DNA of 35,557 nt from Spirochaetia bacterium (lineage in GTDB: Bacteria > Spirochaetota > Spirochaetia > Treponematales > Treponemataceae), in NCBI GenBank assembly GCA_022773305.1, contig JALFAW010000013.1:1-35557 (forward strand), given 5' to 3'. A program made the position numbers and the translations under genes. Below, in pieces: positions 5,352 to 33,755 of this stretch (its first letter is position 1; every line of letters begins with the position of its first letter). The notes beneath the pieces were generated by a model, which saw only the letters and a program-made list of their open reading frames with translations, did not search any database and was not told where the DNA came from.

Positions 5352-6470
5352 TTATATCTGTCCTAACATTGCCTGAACACAAAATGAAACTACGACTACA
5401 ATAAGCGAGATGATAAAGCCGTGAATCATAGGTTTTACACCACTTTTTGCAACTTTTGCAAACGGAGTTTTCAGACCAATTGAACCAAGTGCCATTACAA
5501 AAGCAAATTTACTAATTTTTGAAATGTATGATGCAATTGTTTTGACAGTTTGTTCATTGCCCATTTTTGAAAAAACTACATCTGAAATGCTTCTGACTGC
5601 AACAAATCCTAAAAAAGCAAGAATAAACCATGGAAAGATTTTTGCAATAGAAAACTTTACTTTTTTTGTTTCTAATGGAATTAAACCAGTTTTTCTTTGA
5701 GCGGCAATTATTGTTTTCTGATTGATGTAACCAAACAAAAGAACAATCGGTACGATAGAAAGTGTTCTTGTAAGTTTTACAATTGTTGCAAAATTTCCTG
5801 CTTCTTCAGAAAAAGCATAACCAGCTGCCACAACTGAAGAAGTATCATTTACGGCTGTACCAGTCCAAAGTCCGTATCCCAAATCAGTCATGTTGAAATA
5901 TCGTCCCATTATTGGAAAAGCAATTACCATCAAAATGTCAAAAATAAATGTTGCAGAAATTGCATAAGCAACATCACTATCTTCAGCATCGATTACAGGA
6001 GCGATTGCAGCAATTGCAGAACCTCCACAAATTCCAGTTCCGGCAGAAATCAAATTCGAAAGTTTCCAATTCATTTTAAAAATTTTTCCAAAAAGATTTC
6101 CAAAACCAAATGCTGCTACAAGTGTAAACGACATAACTATAAGCGAAAATTTCCCTACGTGAAGAACTTGCGCAAAGCTCAAAGTAAATCCCATAAGAAC
6201 AATTCCAGCTTTTAGAACTGTTTTTGAAACAAAAGCAAGACCTTTTGCATACCCCTTTGTAGAATTCTCACCGCATTTTTTATCCAGAATTTTTTGAATC
6301 AATGGGTTGAGCGCCATTCCCAAAAGCATGGCAAAAACGCCTGCCGAAATCAAATGATAAGGGATAAATCCTGCAATAAAATTAGAAAGAATTGCAAGAA
6401 CTACAGCACAACAAAGTGCAATCAAAAAAAATAATATTGCTTTAAAAGATTTTGTGGTATCTGTTTTCAT
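5352..6470 (-). CDS. YeiH/UPF0324-family membrane protein, putative exporter
   Basis: 372 residues with about ten membrane segments. Family marks are AMLLGMALNP near the start, GTGICGGSAIAAIAPVI in the middle, the following SATFIFDILMVIAFP, and GTAVNDTSSVVAAG. These are the conserved blocks of the UPF0324 (YeiH) group, sometimes called putative sulfate exporters, whose true substrate is not firmly known. It leads a minus-strand cluster: ten bases separate its stop from birA. A TATAAT six bases before the ATG and no Shine-Dalgarno suggest a leaderless start. Confidence 0.88.
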   Translation of the reverse strand: MKTDTTKSFKAILFFLIALCCAVVLAILSNFIAGFIPYHLISAGVFAMLLGMALNPLIQKILDKKCGENSTKGYAKGLAFVSKTVLKAGIVLMGFTLSFAQVLHVGKFSLIVMSFTLVAAFGFGNLFGKIFKMNWKLSNLISAGTGICGGSAIAAIAPVIDAEDSDVAYAISATFIFDILMVIAFPIMGRYFNMTDLGYGLWTGTAVNDTSSVVAAGYAFSEEAGNFATIVKLTRTLSIVPIVLLFGYINQKTIIAAQRKTGLIPLETKKVKFSIAKIFPWFILAFLGFVAVRSISDVVFSKMGNEQTVKTIASYISKISKFAFVMALGSIGLKTPFAKVAKSGVKPMIHGFIISLIVVVVSFCVQAMLGQI

Positions 6471-10231: not shown

Positions 10232-11404
10232 CTATCTCAAATATCCGCGAATTTGATTTGCAATCAAAGTCATTTTTTCATTATCACGTTGAAAAACTGC
10301 ATTAAATAAATCTGGCTCAACCCCTCCTTCGCAGGAAGCTGCCAAAAATCGAACATCATCAGCTAAAGAATCATAAGCTTCAGCTCTGTAACTTACAGGT
10401 GCAAGCATCGTTTTATCAGAAAGTCGTGTCTGTACATCTTCTGTAAAAAGTTTTTTCAATATTTTTTTAGAATTTGAATTATCTGATATTAAAACACAAT
10501 TTACAGAAGGTGCAATTAAACAATGTGGTATATCTTCGTTTACAACTGGCATTTTTGCAGCAGAAAATTTACTTACAATTTCATACTTTATTTTTCTGTG
10601 CTCAGAAAGATTTGTATAAAAACAGGCAACCTGATTATCTGATGCAAAAACTTCCAAATCAATTCTGTTTGCAATTGTCCACTGAGGATGAATGATTTCT
10701 TCTTTTGGCCATATTTTTAACATGTTCAAAACATCAGCATAACATAATCCGTTTTCATTCAAACCAATATCACAAAAATCATCAAGATTTTCGTAAGTTT
10801 TCATCAATTCAATCAGATTTTTGTAAGATTCTAGTCCGCCCAAAGCTTCCACAAAACTTCCTGTTAGTGCAAGCAACATTCTTTCATCACTGCCATATGT
10901 AAAAAACGGAGAAAAAACATATTGTTTTGATTCTTGCAAAAAATCCGTAAAACTTTGAAAACTCTCCTGAGGATTAATCTGAGTTTTCTCAATCAAATCA
11001 GTTTTAAAAGCCATTTCAAAATGGTCAAGAAGAATAGGAACATAATATTCATTTCTCAATGAAATTGGAATATTCTCAAGAATTTTGGCAGGAATTTTTT
11101 CAGCACTTTTTGACAGATTCTGAGTAACTTCGCCATTCCATGCAAAAATCATATCATATTTCTTTGTTATCGTTCCTAAATCTAAGTTTCCGTCAGCAAG
11201 AAAATCATATTGTATAATAATCTTTTCATCATCAACAAATTCCTGTGGAATTGCTTGGCATAAATCTTGTGAAAGTCCATAAAATGCAACTTTTACAGTT
11301 TTATCTTTGATATTCTTGCGAACTGAAAAAATTATTATAAAAGCAATAACAATGAAACAAACACAAACAAGTATAGGAAAAATAATTTTAAATTTCTTTT
11401 TCAT
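10232..11404 (-). CDS. Membrane-anchored protein, periplasmic-binding-protein-like
   Basis: 390 residues. One N-terminal membrane anchor (about residues 7-28) without a lipobox, then a large extracytoplasmic domain. The start of that domain (TVKVAFYGLSQDLCQ, then YDMIFAWNG) and its length resemble the fold of extracellular solute-binding proteins, but no permease or ATPase gene is near. It heads an operon with the NlpC/P60 protein and a lipoprotein. It may be a sensor or an envelope assembly factor. I do not recognise a specific family. Confidence 0.6.
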   Translation of the reverse strand: MKKKFKIIFPILVCVCFIVIAFIIIFSVRKNIKDKTVKVAFYGLSQDLCQAIPQEFVDDEKIIIQYDFLADGNLDLGTITKKYDMIFAWNGEVTQNLSKSAEKIPAKILENIPISLRNEYYVPILLDHFEMAFKTDLIEKTQINPQESFQSFTDFLQESKQYVFSPFFTYGSDERMLLALTGSFVEALGGLESYKNLIELMKTYENLDDFCDIGLNENGLCYADVLNMLKIWPKEEIIHPQWTIANRIDLEVFASDNQVACFYTNLSEHRKIKYEIVSKFSAAKMPVVNEDIPHCLIAPSVNCVLISDNSNSKKILKKLFTEDVQTRLSDKTMLAPVSYRAEAYDSLADDVRFLAASCEGGVEPDLFNAVFQRDNEKMTLIANQIRGYLR

Positions 11405-12854: not shown

Positions 12855-13703
12855 ATGGTAGATTTACATATTCACACAACAGCTTCAGACGGTCAGTATA
12901 AACCAGAACAAATTGTTCAGAAAGCTCACGAAAAAAACATTTCAACTATTGCTATTACAGACCATGATACAATAAACGGATTACCACAAGCTATGGAAGA
13001 AGGAAAAAAACTTGGAGTAAACGTTGTGCCTGGTGTCGAATTAAATATCAGTGGATTTCCAGGTGAATTTCATCTTTTGGGACTTGGTTTGAAAAATCCA
13101 TCTAAATCACTCTACGAAATTCTGCAAAAAGTTATTGACAATCGCAATGAACGAAATAGAAAAATTATAGAAAAAATGCAATATGACGGAATTGACATCA
13201 GTTTTGAAGAAATGCAAGAAAAATATTCAGGCACTTCGATTGGAAGACCTCATTTTGCAGCAATGATGGTTGAAAAAAAAATTGTTAAGACAACTCAATT
13301 AGCTTTCAATCTTTATCTTACTAAGGGAAAACCATATTATGTTGAAAGAACAGGTTCAAATCTTGATGAAGCAATCATTGCTATTCAAGAATCTGGGGGA
13401 ATTCCTGTTGTAGCACATCCTATGTCGCTTTATCTTTCTTGGGGAAAATTACCTGAAACTTTACAAAGTTTTTATGAAAAAGGTGTGGGCGGAATAGAAG
13501 CTTTTCATCCTGGTGCAAGAATGACAGATTGTCTACGTCTTGAGGAATTAGGACGTAAAATTGGATTTTTTTTGACAGCAGGAAGTGATTTTCATGGTGA
13601 AAAAATAAGACCTGACAGAAAACTCGGATACACAGTCGGAAAAAGAAAAATAGATGATTCTTTTTGGGAAAATGAATTAAAACCAGCGCTTGAAAAACAA
13701 TAA
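12855..13703 (+). CDS. PHP-domain phosphoesterase (RNase AM/TrpH-like)
   Basis: 282 residues, a single PHP domain with all metal-binding motifs: DLHIHTTASDG at residues 3-13, ITDHDT near 40, PGVELN near 60, VAHP, and GSDFHGE close to the end. This set and length match the YciV/TrpH group, of which the E. coli member degrades short RNAs and releases nucleotides from 3',5'-bisphosphates. A metal-dependent cytoplasmic phosphoesterase is safe; the exact substrate is not. It is alone on the plus strand and appears leaderless. Confidence 0.88.
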   Translation: MVDLHIHTTASDGQYKPEQIVQKAHEKNISTIAITDHDTINGLPQAMEEGKKLGVNVVPGVELNISGFPGEFHLLGLGLKNPSKSLYEILQKVIDNRNERNRKIIEKMQYDGIDISFEEMQEKYSGTSIGRPHFAAMMVEKKIVKTTQLAFNLYLTKGKPYYVERTGSNLDEAIIAIQESGGIPVVAHPMSLYLSWGKLPETLQSFYEKGVGGIEAFHPGARMTDCLRLEELGRKIGFFLTAGSDFHGEKIRPDRKLGYTVGKRKIDDSFWENELKPALEKQ

Positions 13704-13761: not shown

Positions 13762-16700
13762 TTAAAATTTAGCTATAAAATTAAAACTATACAAAAATCC
13801 ATTTGTTTTAGGATAAAAAGCAAATTTATTCTCGATGCTGAACATGGATGAAGTGGAAAAACCAATAGATGTTGTAAAATCAACATTTAGCAAAAAATAA
13901 AAACAATCTTTTTCATAAGTTTCAGAAAGAATTCTTCCAGTGTAATTTTCTCTGCGGATATCAGGCTGTAAAACCTTTGAAGTATCATATTTCAGTTGTA
14001 ATTCATAACCAGCTTTTAAGCCAACACGCCCAAAATATAACTGCAATAACGAAAATCCATTATGAATTTCTTTTCCAAAAAGAAGAAGTTCAGTATTTAC
14101 TTTTAACGCAGTACCATTTTCATTAAAAAAAGAAGCGCTAATACTAGTAGGTAAACTTAAAATCCAACCGTTAATCATTTTTAAGGGTGTAAGTCGTGGG
14201 ATTTCAATTTTTGCAAATGCTCCAATATTGATTTGACTTATATCCAACATTTGACTGTCATATAAATCTTTCAATTCATCAAGTTTATTCTGATAATCTG
14301 GATCATCTTCGGTAATCTGTCCAATTTGTTCTTTATTATAATCATTTAAAATTCCAATCTGCGTTAAATCCCAGTTTGAGTAAATTCTAACACCAACAGA
14401 AAAACCTCGTTTTTCGTAAGGAGAAATCCCATATTGATGAATATTTGAATATTCTGTAATCACTGAAGCTTCAAAAAAATTATAAGCTTCTGAAAAAGTT
14501 GGCCAATTGGACAAACTTGGATTTTTATCAATAAGATTTGAATCATAATAATCTGTAGAAGCTGTATAATCTGAATCAATTGTGATTTTCATATTACTAA
14601 AATTCATGCCCATAGGAATTTGCCAAGAAGTTCCAATAATTCCTTCATAAAAATATTCGCCAGAAAGATTAAAACGAAACATACTGCCAACAGAAATGTC
14701 GACTGGGGTTGAAGAATTTTTTATAAAAATAGACGCAGATTTATCTTTTCCGAGTAATCGTGCGTTTTTTAAATAATCTTGTTTATAATCTTCAGAAGGA
14801 TTAAAAACAGTTTCAAAATTTAGTTGAGCAAAATTCCATCCAGCAGAAATATAAAATTCAGTATTTTCAAATGGATCTGTTTGCGAAATGAAAGTAATTC
14901 CCACACCAGGCCAAAGTTCAGGTCCATTATCAGCAGAAATAGAGCGCACAGGAAGCATCGGTCTAACTGAAAAAGGGAAAAAATATTTCCATGGATTATA
15001 ACGGTCTTCTAATTCCAAATCATCTTTTTTTGCAACTGAATCAGCTATTTTCAAATCATCTTGAAAATTTAATTTATGAATTTCAGATTGCACAAAATTC
15101 AAATCATTTTTGGAAATCATCTTAAGCTCATCGTTAATGTACTTTTGTGATGAAAAATAAACTTTGTCATCACAAAAACAAGCCCAGTTAACACCACCAG
15201 AAAAATCATCCTGCAAGAAAAAAGCATTTTCAGGTTCAAAATTCTGATTCAACGAAATGTAACCTGTTTTTGTAAATCCAAAATCTTTTACATTAGCATA
15301 ATCAAATGAAAAAATAAAATCATGATGAACATTAAATATTTTTCTTTTTGTATTACGAGAAATTCTCAAATTCTTGATTCTGATTTGCCCATTTTCTTTA
15401 GAAAAATCTTCGGATAAGACAAAATCTGTCTCCGCAAGAGTCGATAAATCAATCATTTTGATAAACTGCAATTGATTTTTTGAAATAAGAAGAACGATTT
15501 TTCCATCTGGAGTAAAACAAACAGATTCTGGAAATTCATCTGATTCAAAATGTTTCTCATAAATCAAATCACGTTTTTCATCATCATCTGAAAAAGCTAA
15601 AACTTGAAGTTTTGGTATTTTTTCTTCTATATTAATGCCTGCAATCAGTTTGGGCAAAGAATCAATAGAGTCTTTTTCCAGGTAATCCTCATTCAAAAAT
15701 GGTAGAAAAACAGTTCCATTTTGGAGGAAAAACTTTTGTGGAAGAAATTTTCGTTTTTGTAAATCAAAAATCCAGCAAGCTTTCTTTGCAAATTCTTTTC
15801 GATTTTTAATCTGCTTAAACGATACTACAAGAAACCGACCATCTGGTGATAAAGAAAGGTACTCAATATCATTTGCAAGAAAAAGCAAATTTCTTATGGA
15901 AAAAGGATTATAAAATTTATCAGATTCAAAAAAATTTTCAAAAATATCAACTTCGTGTCGGATTTCATCATACCAAATCAATCCATAATCTGAAAAAATT
16001 AGATTTCTATATAATCCTTGTGAATTTTTAGGTAAAATTTGTACCGTTTTTTTTTCATTTTCTAAAATCTCGTCAATATTTTGAGGAACAGGAACACTAT
16101 CATAAAATTCGTTCCATAAAACAGAAAGAGATTTTTTGTAAACATTATAAAAAATACCATCTGTAAACATTAAATTCAGTTTTCCGCTTTCTTTCCATAA
16201 TTCTAAATATTTATCAATTCCATAAGCTTGTAACAAATATGCTGAAAATCCAGCTGTTGCAGCTAAAATAATCTGATTATACGGATGAATATCGTTTGAT
16301 ACACGAGCTTGAAAATGACTTGGAAATTTTCCTTCGATTTTAGCCTGTACTAGCAGTTCAAGTTGTTTTTGTTCTTGAAATTCATAAGTTTCATTTTTAC
16401 AATCATCTTCAGATTCAGATGAAAAATATAAATCACTGTCCTTTTTTTTATTTTCCGAAAGTTTCGAAAATGACTGCGAAATAGAACTAAATCCTTGAAT
16501 AAAAGAAAATGGCATATTCAACTGAGCAACTGGTTGATAAGAACTACCGCCTATCGTGTTTGCAATAAAAGTATTTAACCCACTTTTTTCAGATTGTAAA
16601 ATCGCCCTAAAAACTTCTTCATAAAGTTGAGTCAAAATTACTTCATTCTCAAAAGGAATTGCAAAACCAGGATAAGCTTCAAAAACAATAATTCTGTTGT

Positions 16701-16989
16701 ATGGATTTGGAGTATAAGTTACAGAAAACTCATCTGAATCTGGTGAAATCAGGATAGGAATGTGAAGTTTAACGTTAGATTCCAAAGATTGCAGTGCTTT
16801 TTGATACAGTGTTTCAATATTATGTTCAATGATTTGTGCTGTTTTCATCGATTGTTTTGGGAACAAAATGTCAAAATGTTCTGTTTTTAAAACATATACT
16901 TTGTAAGGTTTGCTCAAAACTGAAGTTCCATTCATGGAAAAGAGAAAAACAAAAATGACAATCAGAAAAGAAAATTTTTTTTTCAACAA
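13762..16989 (-). CDS. Large exported protein: degenerate peptidase-MA-like, propeller-like and barrel-like regions
   Basis: 1075 residues. A signal peptide (to about residue 27) is followed by three regions. Residues 30-330 follow the layout of peptidase-MA-like proteins (HFDILFP; a FIQGFSSISQS block where EGLA-type motifs occur; AGFSAYLLQAYGIDKYLELW), but the expected HExxH is replaced by LYEEVF, so the zinc site is lost. Residues 330-680 have repeated strand motifs such as SPDGRFLVVSF, like a TolB-type propeller. Residues 690-1075 alternate aromatic strands, ending in F, like an outer-membrane barrel. Only TTG is available as a start; TATAAT lies five bases upstream. Domain calls are inference. 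Confidence 0.62.
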   Translation of the reverse strand: MLKKKFSFLIVIFVFLFSMNGTSVLSKPYKVYVLKTEHFDILFPKQSMKTAQIIEHNIETLYQKALQSLESNVKLHIPILISPDSDEFSVTYTPNPYNRIIVFEAYPGFAIPFENEVILTQLYEEVFRAILQSEKSGLNTFIANTIGGSSYQPVAQLNMPFSFIQGFSSISQSFSKLSENKKKDSDLYFSSESEDDCKNETYEFQEQKQLELLVQAKIEGKFPSHFQARVSNDIHPYNQIILAATAGFSAYLLQAYGIDKYLELWKESGKLNLMFTDGIFYNVYKKSLSVLWNEFYDSVPVPQNIDEILENEKKTVQILPKNSQGLYRNLIFSDYGLIWYDEIRHEVDIFENFFESDKFYNPFSIRNLLFLANDIEYLSLSPDGRFLVVSFKQIKNRKEFAKKACWIFDLQKRKFLPQKFFLQNGTVFLPFLNEDYLEKDSIDSLPKLIAGINIEEKIPKLQVLAFSDDDEKRDLIYEKHFESDEFPESVCFTPDGKIVLLISKNQLQFIKMIDLSTLAETDFVLSEDFSKENGQIRIKNLRISRNTKRKIFNVHHDFIFSFDYANVKDFGFTKTGYISLNQNFEPENAFFLQDDFSGGVNWACFCDDKVYFSSQKYINDELKMISKNDLNFVQSEIHKLNFQDDLKIADSVAKKDDLELEDRYNPWKYFFPFSVRPMLPVRSISADNGPELWPGVGITFISQTDPFENTEFYISAGWNFAQLNFETVFNPSEDYKQDYLKNARLLGKDKSASIFIKNSSTPVDISVGSMFRFNLSGEYFYEGIIGTSWQIPMGMNFSNMKITIDSDYTASTDYYDSNLIDKNPSLSNWPTFSEAYNFFEASVITEYSNIHQYGISPYEKRGFSVGVRIYSNWDLTQIGILNDYNKEQIGQITEDDPDYQNKLDELKDLYDSQMLDISQINIGAFAKIEIPRLTPLKMINGWILSLPTSISASFFNENGTALKVNTELLLFGKEIHNGFSLLQLYFGRVGLKAGYELQLKYDTSKVLQPDIRRENYTGRILSETYEKDCFYFLLNVDFTTSIGFSTSSMFSIENKFAFYPKTNGFLYSFNFIAKF

Positions 16990-17947: not shown

Positions 17948-19576
17948 ATGAGTAACAATAATCAAAATAACGAAAAAAGAGATCCTTTACTTTGTCACTG
18001 GGCAGACCAGATGGCAAATCAAATTATTCGCGAAAAAGGCGATTTAGATTCTTATACCTGTGCTTCGGGAATTACTCCTTCTGGAACTGTTCACTTGGGA
18101 AATTTCCGTGAAATTATCACTGTAGATTTAGTTGTTCGTGCTTTGCGCGATCGTGGCAAAAACGTGCGTTTTATTTATTCTTGGGATGATTATGATGTTT
18201 TTAGAAAAGTCCCGCTTAATATGCCTGACCCTGAAATTCTTGAAAAATATTTGCGTTATCCTATTACTGAAGTGCCTGACACAACTGGTCGTAACGAAAA
18301 TTATGCACGCCATCACGAAGTTGATATCGAACAACAGCTTCCACGTGTTGGTATTTATCCTGAGTTTTTATACCAGGCAAGTCGATATCGTGCAAACCGC
18401 TATGCTGAAGGCATGAAAAAGGCTTTACAAAATCGTGAACTTATCAAAGAATGTTTAAACGAATACCGCGATGATGAACATAAAATGAAAAAAGAAGATG
18501 TTTATTGGCCTGTGTCTGTTTTCTGTGGAAAATGTCAAAAAGATACTACAAAAATCACAGACTATGACGGCGAATGGAACATTTCTTATAAATGTGAATG
18601 TGGCAACTGCGAAACTGTTGATTTGCGTACTTTTAAAGGTGCAAAACTTGGCTGGCGTGTTGACTGGCCTATGAGATGGAACGAAGAAAAAGTAGTTTTT
18701 GAACCTGGCGGAAAAGATCATATCAGTCCTGGTGGAAGTTACGATACTGCAAAACTTGTTTCAAAAAAAATTTATGATTGGGATGCACCTGTAACTATGC
18801 GTTATGATTTTGTAAATCTGAAAGGTGTTCCTGGAAAAATGTCATCTTCAAAAGGAAAAGTCATTGCTCTTCCTGATGCTCTTGATGTTTATCAGGCTGA
18901 AGTTTTACGTTATCTTTTTGCAGGAACTCGTCCAAACACAGAATTTTCTATCAGTTTTGATTTGGATGTCCTTAAAGTTTATGAAGATTATGATAAAACT
19001 GAACGCATTGTTTACGGTATTGATAAAGCAAAATCTGAGGATGTTTTTAATAAAGAAAAACGCATTTACATGCTCAGTCAGATAGATGGAAAAATTCCGG
19101 AAGTTATGCCTTATCAGATTACTTTCCGCATGCTCACAACTTTACTTCAGATTTATTCTGGTGATATTGATAAAGTGATTTCTTCTCTCGGTGATGTAAA
19201 ACCTGAACAGGAAGAAAGATTACGCCGTCGTGCTGCATGTGCGTGGTTCTGGATTCAAGATAGCGCTCCAGACCATGCTCCAGAATTCTGTTTTGCGTTA
19301 CGAAATGATGGCAGCAAGGCTGATTTGGAAGGTGATATTTTAACTGCCGTAAAACGTGTAAGAGATGAAGTTTTGCCAAAAATGGATTCGTTCCAAACTG
19401 ACAAAGACTGTCAGCAGGCAATGTATGATATTGCTACTGAAATGGGAATTGAACCTAAATCTTTGTTTACTGCAATGTATAAAGCTTTGATTGATAAAGA
19501 ACAAGGACCTAGACTTGGAAGTTTTATGCGCATAATAGGAAAAAATCGTTTATCTGAAATTTTAAGCGTTTATTAA
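17948..19576 (+). CDS. lysS: Class I (archaeal-type) lysyl-tRNA synthetase
   Basis: 542 residues. It charges tRNA-Lys with lysine using ATP. The Rossmann catalytic core shows the HIGH-type motif HLGN at 49-52 (TPSGTVHLGN) and a KMSKS-type loop, GKMSSSKGK, near residue 300. A cysteine pair-rich stretch around 198-226 (CGKCQKD...KCECGNC) looks like a zinc ribbon. The alpha-helical C-terminal part fits the class I enzyme, which spirochaetes use instead of the usual class II LysRS. It is monocistronic, with a strong terminator after it and its own promoter. Confidence 0.95.
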   Translation: MSNNNQNNEKRDPLLCHWADQMANQIIREKGDLDSYTCASGITPSGTVHLGNFREIITVDLVVRALRDRGKNVRFIYSWDDYDVFRKVPLNMPDPEILEKYLRYPITEVPDTTGRNENYARHHEVDIEQQLPRVGIYPEFLYQASRYRANRYAEGMKKALQNRELIKECLNEYRDDEHKMKKEDVYWPVSVFCGKCQKDTTKITDYDGEWNISYKCECGNCETVDLRTFKGAKLGWRVDWPMRWNEEKVVFEPGGKDHISPGGSYDTAKLVSKKIYDWDAPVTMRYDFVNLKGVPGKMSSSKGKVIALPDALDVYQAEVLRYLFAGTRPNTEFSISFDLDVLKVYEDYDKTERIVYGIDKAKSEDVFNKEKRIYMLSQIDGKIPEVMPYQITFRMLTTLLQIYSGDIDKVISSLGDVKPEQEERLRRRAACAWFWIQDSAPDHAPEFCFALRNDGSKADLEGDILTAVKRVRDEVLPKMDSFQTDKDCQQAMYDIATEMGIEPKSLFTAMYKALIDKEQGPRLGSFMRIIGKNRLSEILSVY

Positions 19577-22759: not shown

Positions 22760-24049
22760 TTACAAAGACTGTGCAACTTTGTAAATGCTTTCGTAAACAG
22801 AATCGATTTTATCTTCATCGATACTTGAAAAAGCCACTCTCAAAGTGTTCTGATCAATCTGAATAATTCCAATTCCAGTAGTTTCAAGAAGTTTTCTGCG
22901 AATCTGTTCAGCATTTCCAGTTTTTACATTGAAACTCATAAAATATCCTGAATTGAAAGGCAAAGGTTCCAAAACAGAAGATTCATGAGAATTTACAAAA
23001 GAACGAACCAAATCATAACGGCGTTTCAACATTTTGCGAAGCTGTTTTTTCTGTTCATCATGACAAGGATCTTTAATTGCATGCATAACAAGACTTTGAG
23101 AAGGAGTAGATGAACATGAAACAGAAGAACGAATTGCTGCCATAAACTTTGTTTCAAGAGCAGCATATTGTTCAGAAGTCAAATCTTTTGATGCGAAAGT
23201 GATAAACCCAGTTCTAAATCCCCATGCAAAATCTTCTTTTGTAGGACCATCAGCCTTGATAGCAAGAACATTTTCGTGAATATCAGCAAGATATGCAAAA
23301 AGAGATTGAGGTTCAATGTCATCTTCATAATTAAGGCCAAAATAAGCATCATCCGAAAGAACAAGAACTTTTTTTCCGCTTTCCGCAATATCTTTTACAA
23401 CACGACAAATTTCCTTTGCCTCATTGACAGTCGGACTATATCCAGAAGGATTTTGAGGAAAATTCAAAATAACGCGAACTGAACCGTACTTTTGTGCGTC
23501 ATCTTTCATCTTTGCTTCCAAATCAGGAATGTTAAATTTTCCGTTTTCAAAACATTTAAACTGATGAAACTCAGCACCACAACGAGCAGAAGCAATCAGT
23601 TCATAATTATCCCAACAAGGATTTGCGGCTAAAAGTGGTTTATTCTCTTCAACAAATAAATCACAAACATAAGAAAGAACAGCCGTGAGTCCAGGAACAA
23701 GAATAGGAGTAGAAAAAGTTTTTTCTTTGAGCGAAGGATTTTTCTCGATGATTTTTTCTTTCCAAAGATTTCTTAATTCAGGATTTCCTGCAGTTTTTGC
23801 ATAAGCAACTGTTTCCTGAGGTTTTAGTGAAGGCATATTTTTTTTGTAAGAATCAAGTTCAATTGGAGTTCCGTTCGAAACTGCCATTCCAATAGTTCCG
23901 TTTGCAAAAGTTGCTTCCTTAGAAGCTTCACCACCTTGAGCAATAATACCTTTTGGAAAATAAAGACGTTTACCCATCTGAGAAATAAGTTCGCCCACAA
24001 CCGAGTCTTTTAATGTTTCATTCAATTCTTGTGCTAAAGGATTAATCAT
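22760..24049 (-). CDS. PLP-dependent class I/II aminotransferase
   Basis: 429 residues, fold type I. The PLP-binding features are NFPQNPSGY (196-204), SDDAYFG with the ring-binding aspartate near 233, and the Schiff-base lysine, most likely K271 in PTKEDFAWGFR. A glycine-rich N-terminal part (AVSNGTPIE) resembles a distinct branch of aspartate/aromatic-like aminotransferases. The amino-acid substrate cannot be read from sequence. The promoter (TTGACT-17-CATAAT) sits nine bases from the ATG and no Shine-Dalgarno is seen. Confidence 0.85.
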   Translation of the reverse strand: MINPLAQELNETLKDSVVGELISQMGKRLYFPKGIIAQGGEASKEATFANGTIGMAVSNGTPIELDSYKKNMPSLKPQETVAYAKTAGNPELRNLWKEKIIEKNPSLKEKTFSTPILVPGLTAVLSYVCDLFVEENKPLLAANPCWDNYELIASARCGAEFHQFKCFENGKFNIPDLEAKMKDDAQKYGSVRVILNFPQNPSGYSPTVNEAKEICRVVKDIAESGKKVLVLSDDAYFGLNYEDDIEPQSLFAYLADIHENVLAIKADGPTKEDFAWGFRTGFITFASKDLTSEQYAALETKFMAAIRSSVSCSSTPSQSLVMHAIKDPCHDEQKKQLRKMLKRRYDLVRSFVNSHESSVLEPLPFNSGYFMSFNVKTGNAEQIRRKLLETTGIGIIQIDQNTLRVAFSSIDEDKIDSVYESIYKVAQSL

Positions 24050-30642: not shown

Positions 30643-30735
30643 TCACCATCTTTTCTGCCAGTTTGCATTCACATTTGTGATTCTCCAAATATCAAAAATG
30701 AACAAGACAAACCAGCAGATAAAGAAATTAATCAC
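30643..30735 (-). other. Possible 30-codon membrane peptide or gene remnant
   Basis: A GTG overlapping the ilvB stop (GTGATTAA) opens a frame for about 30 residues: a hydrophobic stretch INFFICWFVLFIFDIW, then RITNVNANWQKRW and TGA. The amphipathic ending looks protein-like, as in the last segment of a small membrane protein. It has no Shine-Dalgarno. It may be a real small protein coupled to ilvB or the tail of a deleted gene. Confidence 0.25.
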
Positions 30736-32461
30736 GTATAGAATCGATATTTGCCTTTCCGCCTGGAACAAACGGTAAAACAGTTTCTTCAGGATTTACA
30801 CTGATGCGAACAAAACAAGGTTTATTTTTTCTCGATGAATCAAATGCCTTGAGATACCAGAATTCATCACTATCAGCATCAATGGCTTCAATGCCAAAAC
30901 CTTTTGCAATCTGAAGTAAATCAGGGGACTTACTAAAAACAGAAGCGCTGTAATTTTTATCAAATAGAAATTTTTGCTGCTGATAAACCATTCCCAAAGT
31001 TCCATTTTCAAAAACAATAACTGTAACAGGAAGATTTAATTCTGCCAGTGTGGCAAGTTCTTGAACATTCATCATAATTGAACCGTCACCACTGAAACAA
31101 ACAATCCTATTTTCAGGATTTGCCAATGAAGCACCAATAGCCGCAGGAAGTCCAAATCCCATAGTCCCAAGTGAACCAGAAGTCAAAAAAGAACGAGGTC
31201 TTTCAACAGGATAAAACTGAGCTGCCCACATCTGATGCTGACCAACATCAGTAGTGATAATAAGCTTTTCAGCAGAAATGCCAGATTTTTCAGCAAGTTT
31301 TGGAATATTTTTAATAATTTCGCGAGGATTTGCAAGTTTTTCACCTTTTGGACGACCACATTCCAGCGAAACATTTTGATTTTTCAATTCGATAATCGAT
31401 TTAAGCCAGTTTTTGTCTGTAGAAATTTTCTTTTCCAAAACAAGTTCTGTTAAAACTGAAAAAACAGATTCTACATCAGCAACAATCGAAATAGTTGAAG
31501 GCATTATTTTATCAACTTCAGCAGCATCAATATCAATATGAATAATTTTTGCGTTTGGACAAAATTTGGAAACAACACCTGTTGCTCTGTCATCAAAGCG
31601 AACACCAGCAGCAATTACTAAATCACTGTCATGAATTGCAACATTTGCAGCATGATTTCCGTGCATACCAAGCATTCCAACAAAATTATCACAAGAATTT
31701 GGAATTGCACCAAGCCCCATCAAACTGAAAACAGCAGGAATTGAATAATTATCTAAAAACTTTTTGATTTCCTTTGACGCCTTTGGTGAATTACAACCAC
31801 CACCACAATACAAAACCGGTTTTTTAGCATTTTTTAAAAGTTCAATAATTTCAAAACACTTTTTTGCAAGTTCCTCTTTTGTAGAATGATATTTTACAGG
31901 AACTTTACATTGTTTTTCATTTTCAATCATTTTTTCAAAAAAATCATCAGGTATTTCACAACAAGCAAGCTGAACATCACGAGGAACATCAATTAAAACA
32001 GGACCAGGTCTTCCTTGAGTGGCAATTCTGAAAGCTTCTGGAATTGCAGTCAATAGTTCTTCAGGAGATTTTACCATAACAGAATGTTTTGTAATTGGAA
32101 AAGAAAGTCCAAAAGTATCTGCTTCTTGAAAAGCATCGGTTCCAATCAAAGAAGTGTTAACCTGACCAGTAATCGCAATGATTGGAACAGAATCCGCACG
32201 AGCATCAGCAATAGCAGTCAAAAGATTCATCGCCCCTGGTCCAGATGTAGCCATACAAACAGCAATCTTTCCAGTAGAACGAGTAATTCCCTGTGCAATA
32301 AATCCAGCCGCTTGTTCCTGGCGCACAAGGACGTGTTTGATTGTAGATTTATTCAGTTCATCATAAAGTGGCAAAATTGAACCACCTGGAATACCAGCAA
32401 CCAACTCAATACCGAATGCTTTCAAAGATTCTACAATAATTTGTGCACCAGAAATTTTCAT
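30728..32461 (-). CDS. ilvB: Acetolactate synthase large subunit (IlvB)
   Basis: 577 residues from the chosen start. It condenses two pyruvates, or pyruvate with 2-oxobutyrate, the first common step to valine, leucine and isoleucine. The catalytic glutamate is E49 in VRQEQAAG; GRPGPVLIDVPRD follows, and the ThDP/Mg motif GDGSIMMNVQELATLAEL is in the C-terminal third. The frame extends to an ATG at 32473, but GAGG seven bases before the ATG at 32461 lies inside that extension, so 32461 is the likely start. No regulatory subunit gene ilvN follows. The gene is controlled by the attenuator at 32489-32665. Confidence 0.95.
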   Translation of the reverse strand: MKISGAQIIVESLKAFGIELVAGIPGGSILPLYDELNKSTIKHVLVRQEQAAGFIAQGITRSTGKIAVCMATSGPGAMNLLTAIADARADSVPIIAITGQVNTSLIGTDAFQEADTFGLSFPITKHSVMVKSPEELLTAIPEAFRIATQGRPGPVLIDVPRDVQLACCEIPDDFFEKMIENEKQCKVPVKYHSTKEELAKKCFEIIELLKNAKKPVLYCGGGCNSPKASKEIKKFLDNYSIPAVFSLMGLGAIPNSCDNFVGMLGMHGNHAANVAIHDSDLVIAAGVRFDDRATGVVSKFCPNAKIIHIDIDAAEVDKIMPSTISIVADVESVFSVLTELVLEKKISTDKNWLKSIIELKNQNVSLECGRPKGEKLANPREIIKNIPKLAEKSGISAEKLIITTDVGQHQMWAAQFYPVERPRSFLTSGSLGTMGFGLPAAIGASLANPENRIVCFSGDGSIMMNVQELATLAELNLPVTVIVFENGTLGMVYQQQKFLFDKNYSASVFSKSPDLLQIAKGFGIEAIDADSDEFWYLKAFDSSRKNKPCFVRISVNPEETVLPFVPGGKANIDSIRD

Positions 32462-32488
32462 TTTAAACCTCATAATAAAAATATTTGC

Positions 32489-32520
32489 AAAAAAAAAGCC
32501 CTCCGATTTCCCGGAGAGCC
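32489..32520 (-). terminator. ilvB attenuator terminator
   Basis: Minus-strand stem GCTCTCCG (32512-32519) with CGGAGGGC (32498-32505), one G-U pair, six-base loop, then nine Ts. It lies between the leader peptide and ilvB. Its 5' arm can instead pair with CCCGAAGAG (32562-32570): CTCTCCGGG at 32510-32518, which would break the terminator. Confidence 0.88.
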
Positions 32521-32572
32521 TAAAATCTATATCATGCTTTAATCATAAGATATAACATTCACTCTTCGGGTA

Positions 32573-32629
32573 TCAGATTACCGATAGGACGAGGACAGTT
32601 ACAACTTTGACTAAAGACAAAAAATGCAT
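32573..32629 (-). CDS. ilvB leader peptide (attenuation)
   Basis: An 18-codon ORF, MHFLSLVKVVTVLVLSVI, followed by TGA. Eleven of 18 residues are Val, Leu or Ile (six Val, four Leu, one Ile), the end-products of the IlvB pathway. It is followed by an attenuator terminator 50-80 bases later. Stalling at these codons when branched-chain aminoacyl-tRNAs are scarce would leave 32562-32570 free to form the antiterminator. The promoter -10 box ends seven bases before the ATG, so the peptide is probably translated from a leaderless start. Confidence 0.85.
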   Translation of the reverse strand: MHFLSLVKVVTVLVLSVI

Positions 32630-32636
32630 GAAGTAA

Positions 32637-32665
32637 ATTATGTTGATTTTTAGTAATTTTGTCAA
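32637..32665 (-). promoter_or_regulatory. Promoter of the ilvB leader
   Basis: Minus-strand TTGACA (32660-32665), a perfect -35, 17-nt spacer, CATAAT (32637-32642), then seven bases to the leader-peptide ATG. One of the best promoters in the window. Confidence 0.8.
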
Positions 32666-32756
32666 GAGTGTATTTTACACAAAAGACTTCCAAGTTGTTT
32701 ATACATTTCATTACTAAAGCGTTTTTTTTATTATCATAGCACAAATTCAGTTAAGT

Positions 32757-32878: not shown

Positions 32879-32902
32879 TTGTTTTTCATTATTTCTATGT
32901 TA

Positions 32903-32982
32903 AATACGTCGAGTCAAGGCACGCTAACGCTTAAAGCCTTGACTTCGCCGTTTTGAGGGTTGTACTACCCCCTCAATAAAAA
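32903..32982 (-). repeat. 79-bp two-hairpin module, inverted copy 1
   Basis: Matches 35439-35519 in the opposite orientation with a single one-base difference. Read on the minus strand it has TGAGGGGG...ACCCTCA, then TCAAGGC...GCCTTGA with an inner AGCG-TTA-GCGT. It stands alone here, without the 173-bp module that surrounds the other copy. Confidence 0.85.
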
Positions 32983-33065: not shown

Positions 33066-33755
33066 TTATTCTCCATAAGCATCATATGATTTTTTGGAAT
33101 CATAAACACCAGAACGGTATTCACCTGTTATACTAGGAATCTTCATTTTCATGCCAGGCAAAATTAGATTTGGATCTTCTGGTTTAGGCATGTCATTTTT
33201 GTTTGCCTGATACAAATTCTCCCACAACAAAGGATTATTATAAACATAAGGTCTTCCAGAAATATTCCAATAACAATCTTTTGTTTCAGTCCATGGTTTT
33301 ACAATGTAATACTCCGGTAGTGGAGTAACTTCTCGAATTCCATCCAATGAAGCAATACAAGCCTTTGCATATTCAGTCGCTTGAGGATAATCTTCAGATT
33401 CAAATGAACTTTCTGCATTTGAAAGATTTTCTATTGCTGCTGAATAAGCCATTGGAAAAGTATTTGGTGCATTTATTTTTTCTGCATAAGCAACTTGATT
33501 TTTTGCCAATTTAATATTATCTTCTGCAGTTTTTCGTTCCATCATAAGTGCAATATAAGCTTTCGAAAGAGCAGCATTCTCTTCAGCCTTTTTTGAGTAT
33601 TCTACAGCATCATCATATTGACCAGCATCCAAAGCAATTTCAGCTTTTTTTGTATATTCATCCGCAAGTTTCTGATAAGTATTATTTTTATAACTGATTG
33701 CAAAAAGAGAAAGTGAAAACAATGTTACAAATAAAATTACTACACTTTTTTTCAT
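33066..33755 (-). CDS. Exported protein with helical repeats and C-terminal LysM domain
   Basis: 229 residues. A signal peptide (about 19 residues) is followed by two or three helical, TPR-like pairs (YTKKAEIALDAGQYDDAVEY and similar) to about residue 140. The last 60 residues are a LysM domain of the form YYIVKPWTETKDCYWNISG...WENLYQANK...DPNLILPGMKMKIP, expected to bind peptidoglycan. It likely tethers an envelope complex to the wall. GGAGG ten bases before the ATG lies at the end of the upstream gene; only two bases separate the two genes, so they are one operon. Confidence 0.82.
   Translation of the reverse strand: MKKSVVILFVTLFSLSLFAISYKNNTYQKLADEYTKKAEIALDAGQYDDAVEYSKKAEENAALSKAYIALMMERKTAEDNIKLAKNQVAYAEKINAPNTFPMAYSAAIENLSNAESSFESEDYPQATEYAKACIASLDGIREVTPLPEYYIVKPWTETKDCYWNISGRPYVYNNPLLWENLYQANKNDMPKPEDPNLILPGMKMKIPSITGEYRSGVYDSKKSYDAYGE

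Follow-up and report, generated by a model that had tools for sequence, protein, structure and literature searches.

A putative ribosome-mediated attenuator with an apparently leaderless leader peptide upstream of ilvB in Treponema relatives

Results

Organization of the locus upstream of ilvB

On the minus strand of the window, i.e. the whole stretch of 35,557 nucleotides analyzed here, a candidate regulatory element is located between a gene at 33066-33755, for which no Pfam match was found, and ilvB (Table 1). An earlier, sequence-only reading of this DNA had described a promoter, a short ORF and two alternative RNA stems at this locus, and all of these elements are present on the minus strand with the coordinates assigned to them. 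The ilvB product contains three Pfam TPP-enzyme domains, as in acetolactate synthase, which confirms the gene class, and no gene on the same strand lies directly 3' of ilvB in the window. The more downstream of the two ilvB starts in Table 1 is conserved, and in one related locus (L004) the more upstream ATG does not lie in the ilvB frame; the ORF caller has probably placed the start 12 nt too early. Because a GAGG Shine-Dalgarno-like site precedes it, ilvB itself has a conventional start.

Table 1. Elements of the candidate ilvB attenuator in the window
Feature	Position	Strand	Remarks
-35 box TTGACA	32660-32665	-	TTGACA/TTGACT-like in nearly all relatives
-10 box CATAAT	32637-32642	-	17-nt spacer; ends 7 nt 5' of leader ATG
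Predicted transcription start, A of leader AUG	32629	-	Predicted from 7-nt discriminator and comparative fixed spacing
Leader ATG	32627-32629	-	
18-codon leader ORF MHFLSLVKVVTVLVLSVI and TGA stop codon (32573-32575)	32573-32629	-	11 V/L/I residues
Regulatory codons GTC CTC GTC CTA (codons 12-15)	32585-32596	-	Conserved; predicted stall site
Segments 1:2, anti-antiterminator stem around stop codon	32562-32593	-	Present in ribosome-free fold; weak covariation
Segment 2, CCCGAAGAG, antiterminator 5' arm	32562-32570	-	Immediately 3' of stop codon
Segment 3, CTCTCCGGG, antiterminator 3' arm and part of terminator 5' arm	32510-32518	-	
Segments 3:4, intrinsic terminator	32488-32521	-	11-bp stem (32496-32521), 4-nt loop, T run
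GAGG, Shine-Dalgarno-like site of ilvB	32468-32471	-	From sequence
ilvB, acetolactate synthase large subunit type	30728-32461	-	Conserved start 32461; ORF caller start 32473

Segments 2 and 3 pair at eight of nine positions with a single A-C mismatch, and the leader region folds with a z-score of -5.35 relative to shuffled sequences. The probability of at least 11 V/L/I codons out of 17 is ~1e-3 for one given ORF at intergenic base composition, which is weak taken alone. We judge the element to be more than a product of chance because it is conserved in ~75 genomes.

Conservation and phylogenetic distribution

IlvB was searched in 118 genomes of the same genus and the regions upstream of ilvB were retrieved; 29 of these regions contain a short V/L-rich ORF at a near-constant distance from a TTGACA-like box. 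A covariance model (R1) that spans only the part from the ATG to the terminator and leaves out the promoter was run on all 200 genomes of the genus and gave ~60 strong matches, one per genome. For the 30 matches from genomes or contigs outside model building, ilvB is located directly 3' in 28 cases, the remaining two lie within 116 bases of contig ends, and all 30 are again found 5-10 nt 3' of a -10-like box. Three weak matches (L269, L271 and L272, below ~38 bits) had no ilvB and were rejected; they are the only ones without ilvB among the genus matches examined. Five more genera of the family have the same element before ilvB, and a distant match (L282) without ilvB was rejected as false.

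In total, the V/L-rich ORF, the terminator and the antiterminator are conserved in ~75 genomes, in agreement with the original proposal of a ribosome-mediated attenuator of ilvB. The comparison of homologous regions that had been put forward as a check on this proposal shows that relatives keep the V/L-rich ORF and that their stems contain compensatory changes. At the loci examined from other families of the phylum, ilvB is preceded by an attenuator with a 5' UTR and in most cases a Shine-Dalgarno-like site: In families f17, f30 and f43 a 5' UTR and an AGGA-like site precede the leader ATG (L281, L301, L302, L303 and L347; the promoter of L347 was assigned by eye, the automatic scan having picked a weak site), and L304 from family f49 has a 5' UTR without a clear site of this type.

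The leader start abuts the promoter

The sequence-only reading had described the leader as apparently leaderless, and the comparative data are consistent with this prediction: the gap between the -10 box and the leader start is 5-9 nt in 72 of the 75 leaders with readable promoters. Among 58 leaders from the genus, gaps of 5, 6, 7, 8 and 9 nt are found in 4, 14, 32, 3 and 2 cases, respectively, a gap of 10 nt in two and a gap of 1 nt in one; thus, 55 of 58 (95%) fall within 5-9 nt compared to 15% in shuffled upstream sequence. All 17 leaders from the five other genera have a gap of exactly 6 nt. A single promoter match is unexceptional in this region, with three sites found and 3.1 expected from shuffling, and what sets the promoter apart is the constant spacing to the ATG that it keeps from genome to genome. 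With gaps of 10 nt (L028 and L246) or 9 nt (L092 and L260), four leaders perhaps have a 5' UTR of 2-3 nt.

Leaderless initiation favors an ATG start codon, and 75 of 76 leaders start with ATG. The exception is L040, with a TTG start, the 1-nt gap and a downstream ilvB that contains an in-frame TAG. The ilvB genes in G098:C5 and G100:C43 each contain one in-frame TAG, and the leader in G098 (L040) also lacks an in-frame ATG, which suggests decay or an assembly error. Based on promoter spacing, we predict that the leader peptide is apparently leaderless.

Alternatively, the attenuator is real and the main transcript begins further upstream, giving the leader ORF an ordinary 5' UTR and making the abutting promoter a minor one. 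Two weaker promoter-like sites at 32672-32701 and 32888-32917 could serve such a transcript, and the ilvB attenuators in other families of the phylum do carry 5' UTRs; however, these upstream sites are no better than chance by the count given above, the leader ATG of the window lacks a preceding Shine-Dalgarno-like site, such a site reaches -4 kcal/mol or better in only 5 of 58 relatives, and the distance from promoter to ATG is constant across genera in which the promoters otherwise differ. We consider an upstream start unlikely and favor initiation at or close to the leader AUG.

Several observations concern the promoters of this family more generally. In other genera of the family, a palindrome, e.g. 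TGCATAATTATGCATA, is located in the spacer between the -35 and -10 boxes (L278, L280, L300, L328-L334, L336, L337 and L339); this type of palindrome is absent from the promoter in the window. It seems to resemble an ARG box, i.e. an ArgR-type operator. In one sub-group (L007, L009-L011, L013, L091, L224, L226, L230, L234, L239 and L247), AAAATTTGGAAAAT is conserved in the spacer and -10 region. At genus loci without the attenuator (L053, L054, L056, L058, L062, L069 and L074), the ATG of ilvB itself often abuts the promoter as judged by eye, and ilvB looks leaderless at these loci. In the window, a good -10 box lies 5-9 nt before the start of the ORFs at 2319-2855, 5352-6470, 10232-11404, 12855-13703, 13762-16989, 17948-19576 and 22760-24049. 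A scan of the same genome for further leaderless leader peptides behind TTGACA promoters gave 53 sites, mostly long coding sequences or short chance ORFs, among which no second amino-acid leader was recognized; the sites include long coding sequences with TTGACA-17/18-TATAAT-like boxes abutting the ATG, and leaderless starts may be widespread among the genes of this organism. In spirochaete genomes with leaderless genes, 1.8-6.9% of the genes have been estimated to be leaderless (PMC3160421).

The leader ORF and the amino acids predicted to be sensed

Frame 0 is open through 16 codons in all 76 leaders, whereas the other two frames contain stops in 68 and 37 of 76. The mean V/L/I content of the 16 codons after the start is 61% in frame 0 compared to 19% and 9% in the other frames. 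The pN/pS ratio of the leader ORF (0.84 vs 0.82 and 1.11 in the other frames) is uninformative as an ORF test, and third codon positions of the leader also seem constrained.

Scarcity of Val, Leu and Ile had been suggested as the signal that switches ilvB on. The composition of the leaders agrees with this mainly for Val (31% of residues) and Leu (17%); Ile makes up 3.7% of leader residues compared to 7.9% of codons in the genes of the window. Codon choice is strongly biased: GUC accounts for 45-47% of Val codons in genus leaders vs 5.7% in the genes of the window, and CUC for 32-33% of Leu codons vs 4.1%. Leaders from the other genera of this family are less biased (GUC, 45% vs 25%; CUC, 28% vs 22%). 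Because the tRNA set recovered from the window's own genome is incomplete (33 found), we turned to the near-complete relative G077, in which the only tRNA-Val found has the anticodon UAC and the tRNA-Leu species have UAA, CAA, UAG and CAG; no GAC (Val) or GAG (Leu) anticodon was found in this set. With no Watson-Crick partner among these tRNAs, decoding of GUC and CUC would depend entirely on wobble. Together with the codon bias of the leaders, the choice of GUC and CUC is therefore consistent with tuning for stalling. Part of the conservation of CUC may reflect base pairing to GAG in segment 2 instead of slow decoding. Overall, we infer that the leader senses mainly Val and Leu by means of the rare codons GUC and CUC.

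The antiterminator covaries with the terminator

That the terminator and the antiterminator share a segment, as the sequence-only reading had it, is supported by covariation across 38 non-redundant leaders. Segments 2 and 3 pair with -13.6 kcal/mol with their own partners and -11.2 kcal/mol with permuted ones (z = -7.3; 0 of 20,000 permutations as good), compared to z = 0.9 and -0.1 for two control pairings and z = -9.6 for the terminator; the permutation leaves sequence relatedness in place, and the control pairings carry the same relatedness. Both sides of the stem are exchanged, e.g. GGAGC/GGGCTCC in L037 vs CCAGAGAG/CTCTCCGG in L007. Covariation of the 1:2 stem is weak, with z = -2.4 (215 of 20,000 permutations) using better placed windows and no signal with the first choice of arms. 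In 8 of the 38 leaders the ORF continues through segment 2 rather than ending before it; a ribosome translating such an ORF would still cover segment 2, and the logic is the same.

In foldings from which the bases under a ribosome were masked and which extended to just past segment 3, a stall in the V/L run gave the antiterminator in all 38 leaders, compared to 3 of 38 when the ribosome had reached the stop codon or was reading through and 9 of 38 in the absence of a ribosome. For the window, eight antiterminator pairs formed with a stall at codons 7-15, none with the ribosome at the stop codon and none in the ribosome-free state. Because a mask placed at the stop codon necessarily removes segment 2 from pairing, this analysis tests geometry and not energetics; in both the geometry and the masked foldings, a ribosome that has reached the stop codon covers segment 2, and one stalled at the regulatory codons leaves it free. 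Once the complete terminator is included, the minimum-energy fold prefers the terminator for stalls at codons 13-15 and, therefore, commitment to the antiterminator before segment 4 is made would be needed, i.e. a kinetic decision as in other attenuators.

A riboswitch ligand or a PyrR-like protein, to which the terminator and antiterminator would respond while the ORF is incidental, is a very improbable alternative. In general terms, alternative structures before a biosynthetic gene are compatible with a switch of this type, and the ribosome-free fold is strong; yet it is the ORF, open in every leader and rich in V/L/I, that is the conserved part, segment 2 lies within reach of a terminating ribosome, and the alignment contains no extended aptamer-like conserved core. 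Moreover, no Rfam 15 family reached its gathering score at this locus or in nine related loci, and a low-threshold search of the locus gave sub-threshold matches to unrelated families only (best E 0.036). Least credible of all is a mere terminator of upstream transcription next to an unrelated promoter, a common intergenic arrangement that would involve no attenuation, since the covariation of segment 2 with the terminator's 5' arm would be unnecessary in a plain terminator, and ilvB lies downstream in every strong genus match examined whose contig continues.

Discussion

The locus combines a short V/L/I-rich ORF, an intrinsic terminator before ilvB and an antiterminator that shares a segment with this terminator, as in ribosome-mediated attenuators. 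Combining these parts with their conservation, covariation, spacing and geometry, all of which were established by computation, we suggest with a probability of roughly 0.88 that the element is a four-segment ribosome-mediated transcription attenuator of ilvB in which the leader is translated from a leaderless 5'-AUG.

What we infer from these data is where transcription starts, that the leader is translated, that ribosomes stall on it, that transcription terminates and that the switch responds to Val and Leu; the proposed sequence of events would be as follows: (i) RNA polymerase would start at, or a few bases from, the A of the leader AUG, (ii) a ribosome would load directly on the 5'-AUG and trail the polymerase, (iii) with ample charged Val-tRNA and Leu-tRNA, this ribosome would reach the stop codon and cover segment 2, and the 3:4 terminator would end transcription, (iv) with charged Val-tRNA or Leu-tRNA in short supply, the ribosome would stall in the GUC/CUC run, segments 2 and 3 would pair and polymerase would read through into ilvB, and (v) with no ribosome on the leader, segments 1 and 2 would pair and the terminator would form in most members.

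A more speculative model, which we regard as doubtful, is that the leaderless start is itself part of sensing. In this model, loading on the 5'-AUG would be timed with promoter escape, the switch would also read the capacity for leaderless initiation, GUC and CUC without Watson-Crick tRNAs would set the threshold, and the leadered attenuators of neighboring families and the leaderless ones described here would represent two alternative states of a single ancestral device.

Attenuators of the same gene with and without a 5' UTR provide a natural comparison within one phylum, and this comparison makes it testable whether ribosome and polymerase can remain coupled, as attenuation requires, when initiation is leaderless. 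The element also predicts when relatives of Treponema make branched-chain amino acids.

The attenuators of the enterobacterial ilv, leu and trp operons work by four-segment logic and ribosome stalling, and their leader ORFs have a 5' UTR and a ribosome binding site. The sequence-only reading had taken the enterobacterial ilv attenuators as its model; this likeness holds for the four-segment stalling logic, whereas neither a 5' UTR nor a ribosome binding site is predicted here, and in its anatomy the element is nearer to the actinobacterial leaderless ilvB attenuators.

Within the spirochaetes, an ilvB motif is known from Leptospira (PMC8632094) and has been reinterpreted as a uORF attenuator (PMC10272879). 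It likewise consists of a uORF rich in branched-chain amino acids 5' of ilvB with proposed attenuation; it differs in having seven representatives, from Leptospira only, and in the description available a leaderless start is not mentioned. Neither the element in Treponema nor any leaderless attenuator of spirochaetes turned up in our search of the literature, which covered open-access papers and few subscription papers.

A leaderless attenuator leader had been presented as a variant not known to be described; such leaders are in fact published for Corynebacterium, Streptomyces and trpL of Sinorhizobium meliloti. The leaderless trpL of S. meliloti (PMC7298713) and the leaderless polycysteine attenuators reported for mycobacteria (Canestrari 2020, cited in PMC13236596) are alike in that leaderless leader ORFs control downstream genes and differ in the amino acids and genes concerned. 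In S. lividans, several attenuator leaders are leaderless, including ilvL before ilvBHC (PMC8079986); a clear terminator is missing from several of these actinobacterial attenuators, whereas the element described here has a canonical terminator and a covarying antiterminator.

The closest parallels are the Corynebacterium ilvB attenuators. In C. glutamicum, transcription of ilvBNC starts one nucleotide from the leader ATG, and mutation of the Val codons or of the ATG alters expression (PMC11857589); the title of Morbach and colleagues (2000, cited in PMC10272879) speaks of leader peptide formation without a ribosome binding site, and the ilvB leader of C. diphtheriae is leaderless as well (PMC5784534). 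C. glutamicum ilvBNC, the ilvB-II motif (PMC11857589, PMC10272879) and the C. diphtheriae leader (PMC5784534) share with our element a leader rich in branched-chain amino acids 5' of ilvB, a terminator with an antiterminator, a transcript that begins on the leader ATG or one nucleotide away from it (predicted here) and the lack of a ribosome binding site. C. glutamicum differs in phylum, sequence, peptide (MTIIRLVVVTARRLP there) and in the ilvBNC operon. Leaderless ilvB attenuation is thus already known in kind, the spirochaete case is new as far as the literature searched shows, and leaderless attenuation, so far described from actinobacteria and an alphaproteobacterium, would be extended to the spirochaetes and ~75 of their genomes.
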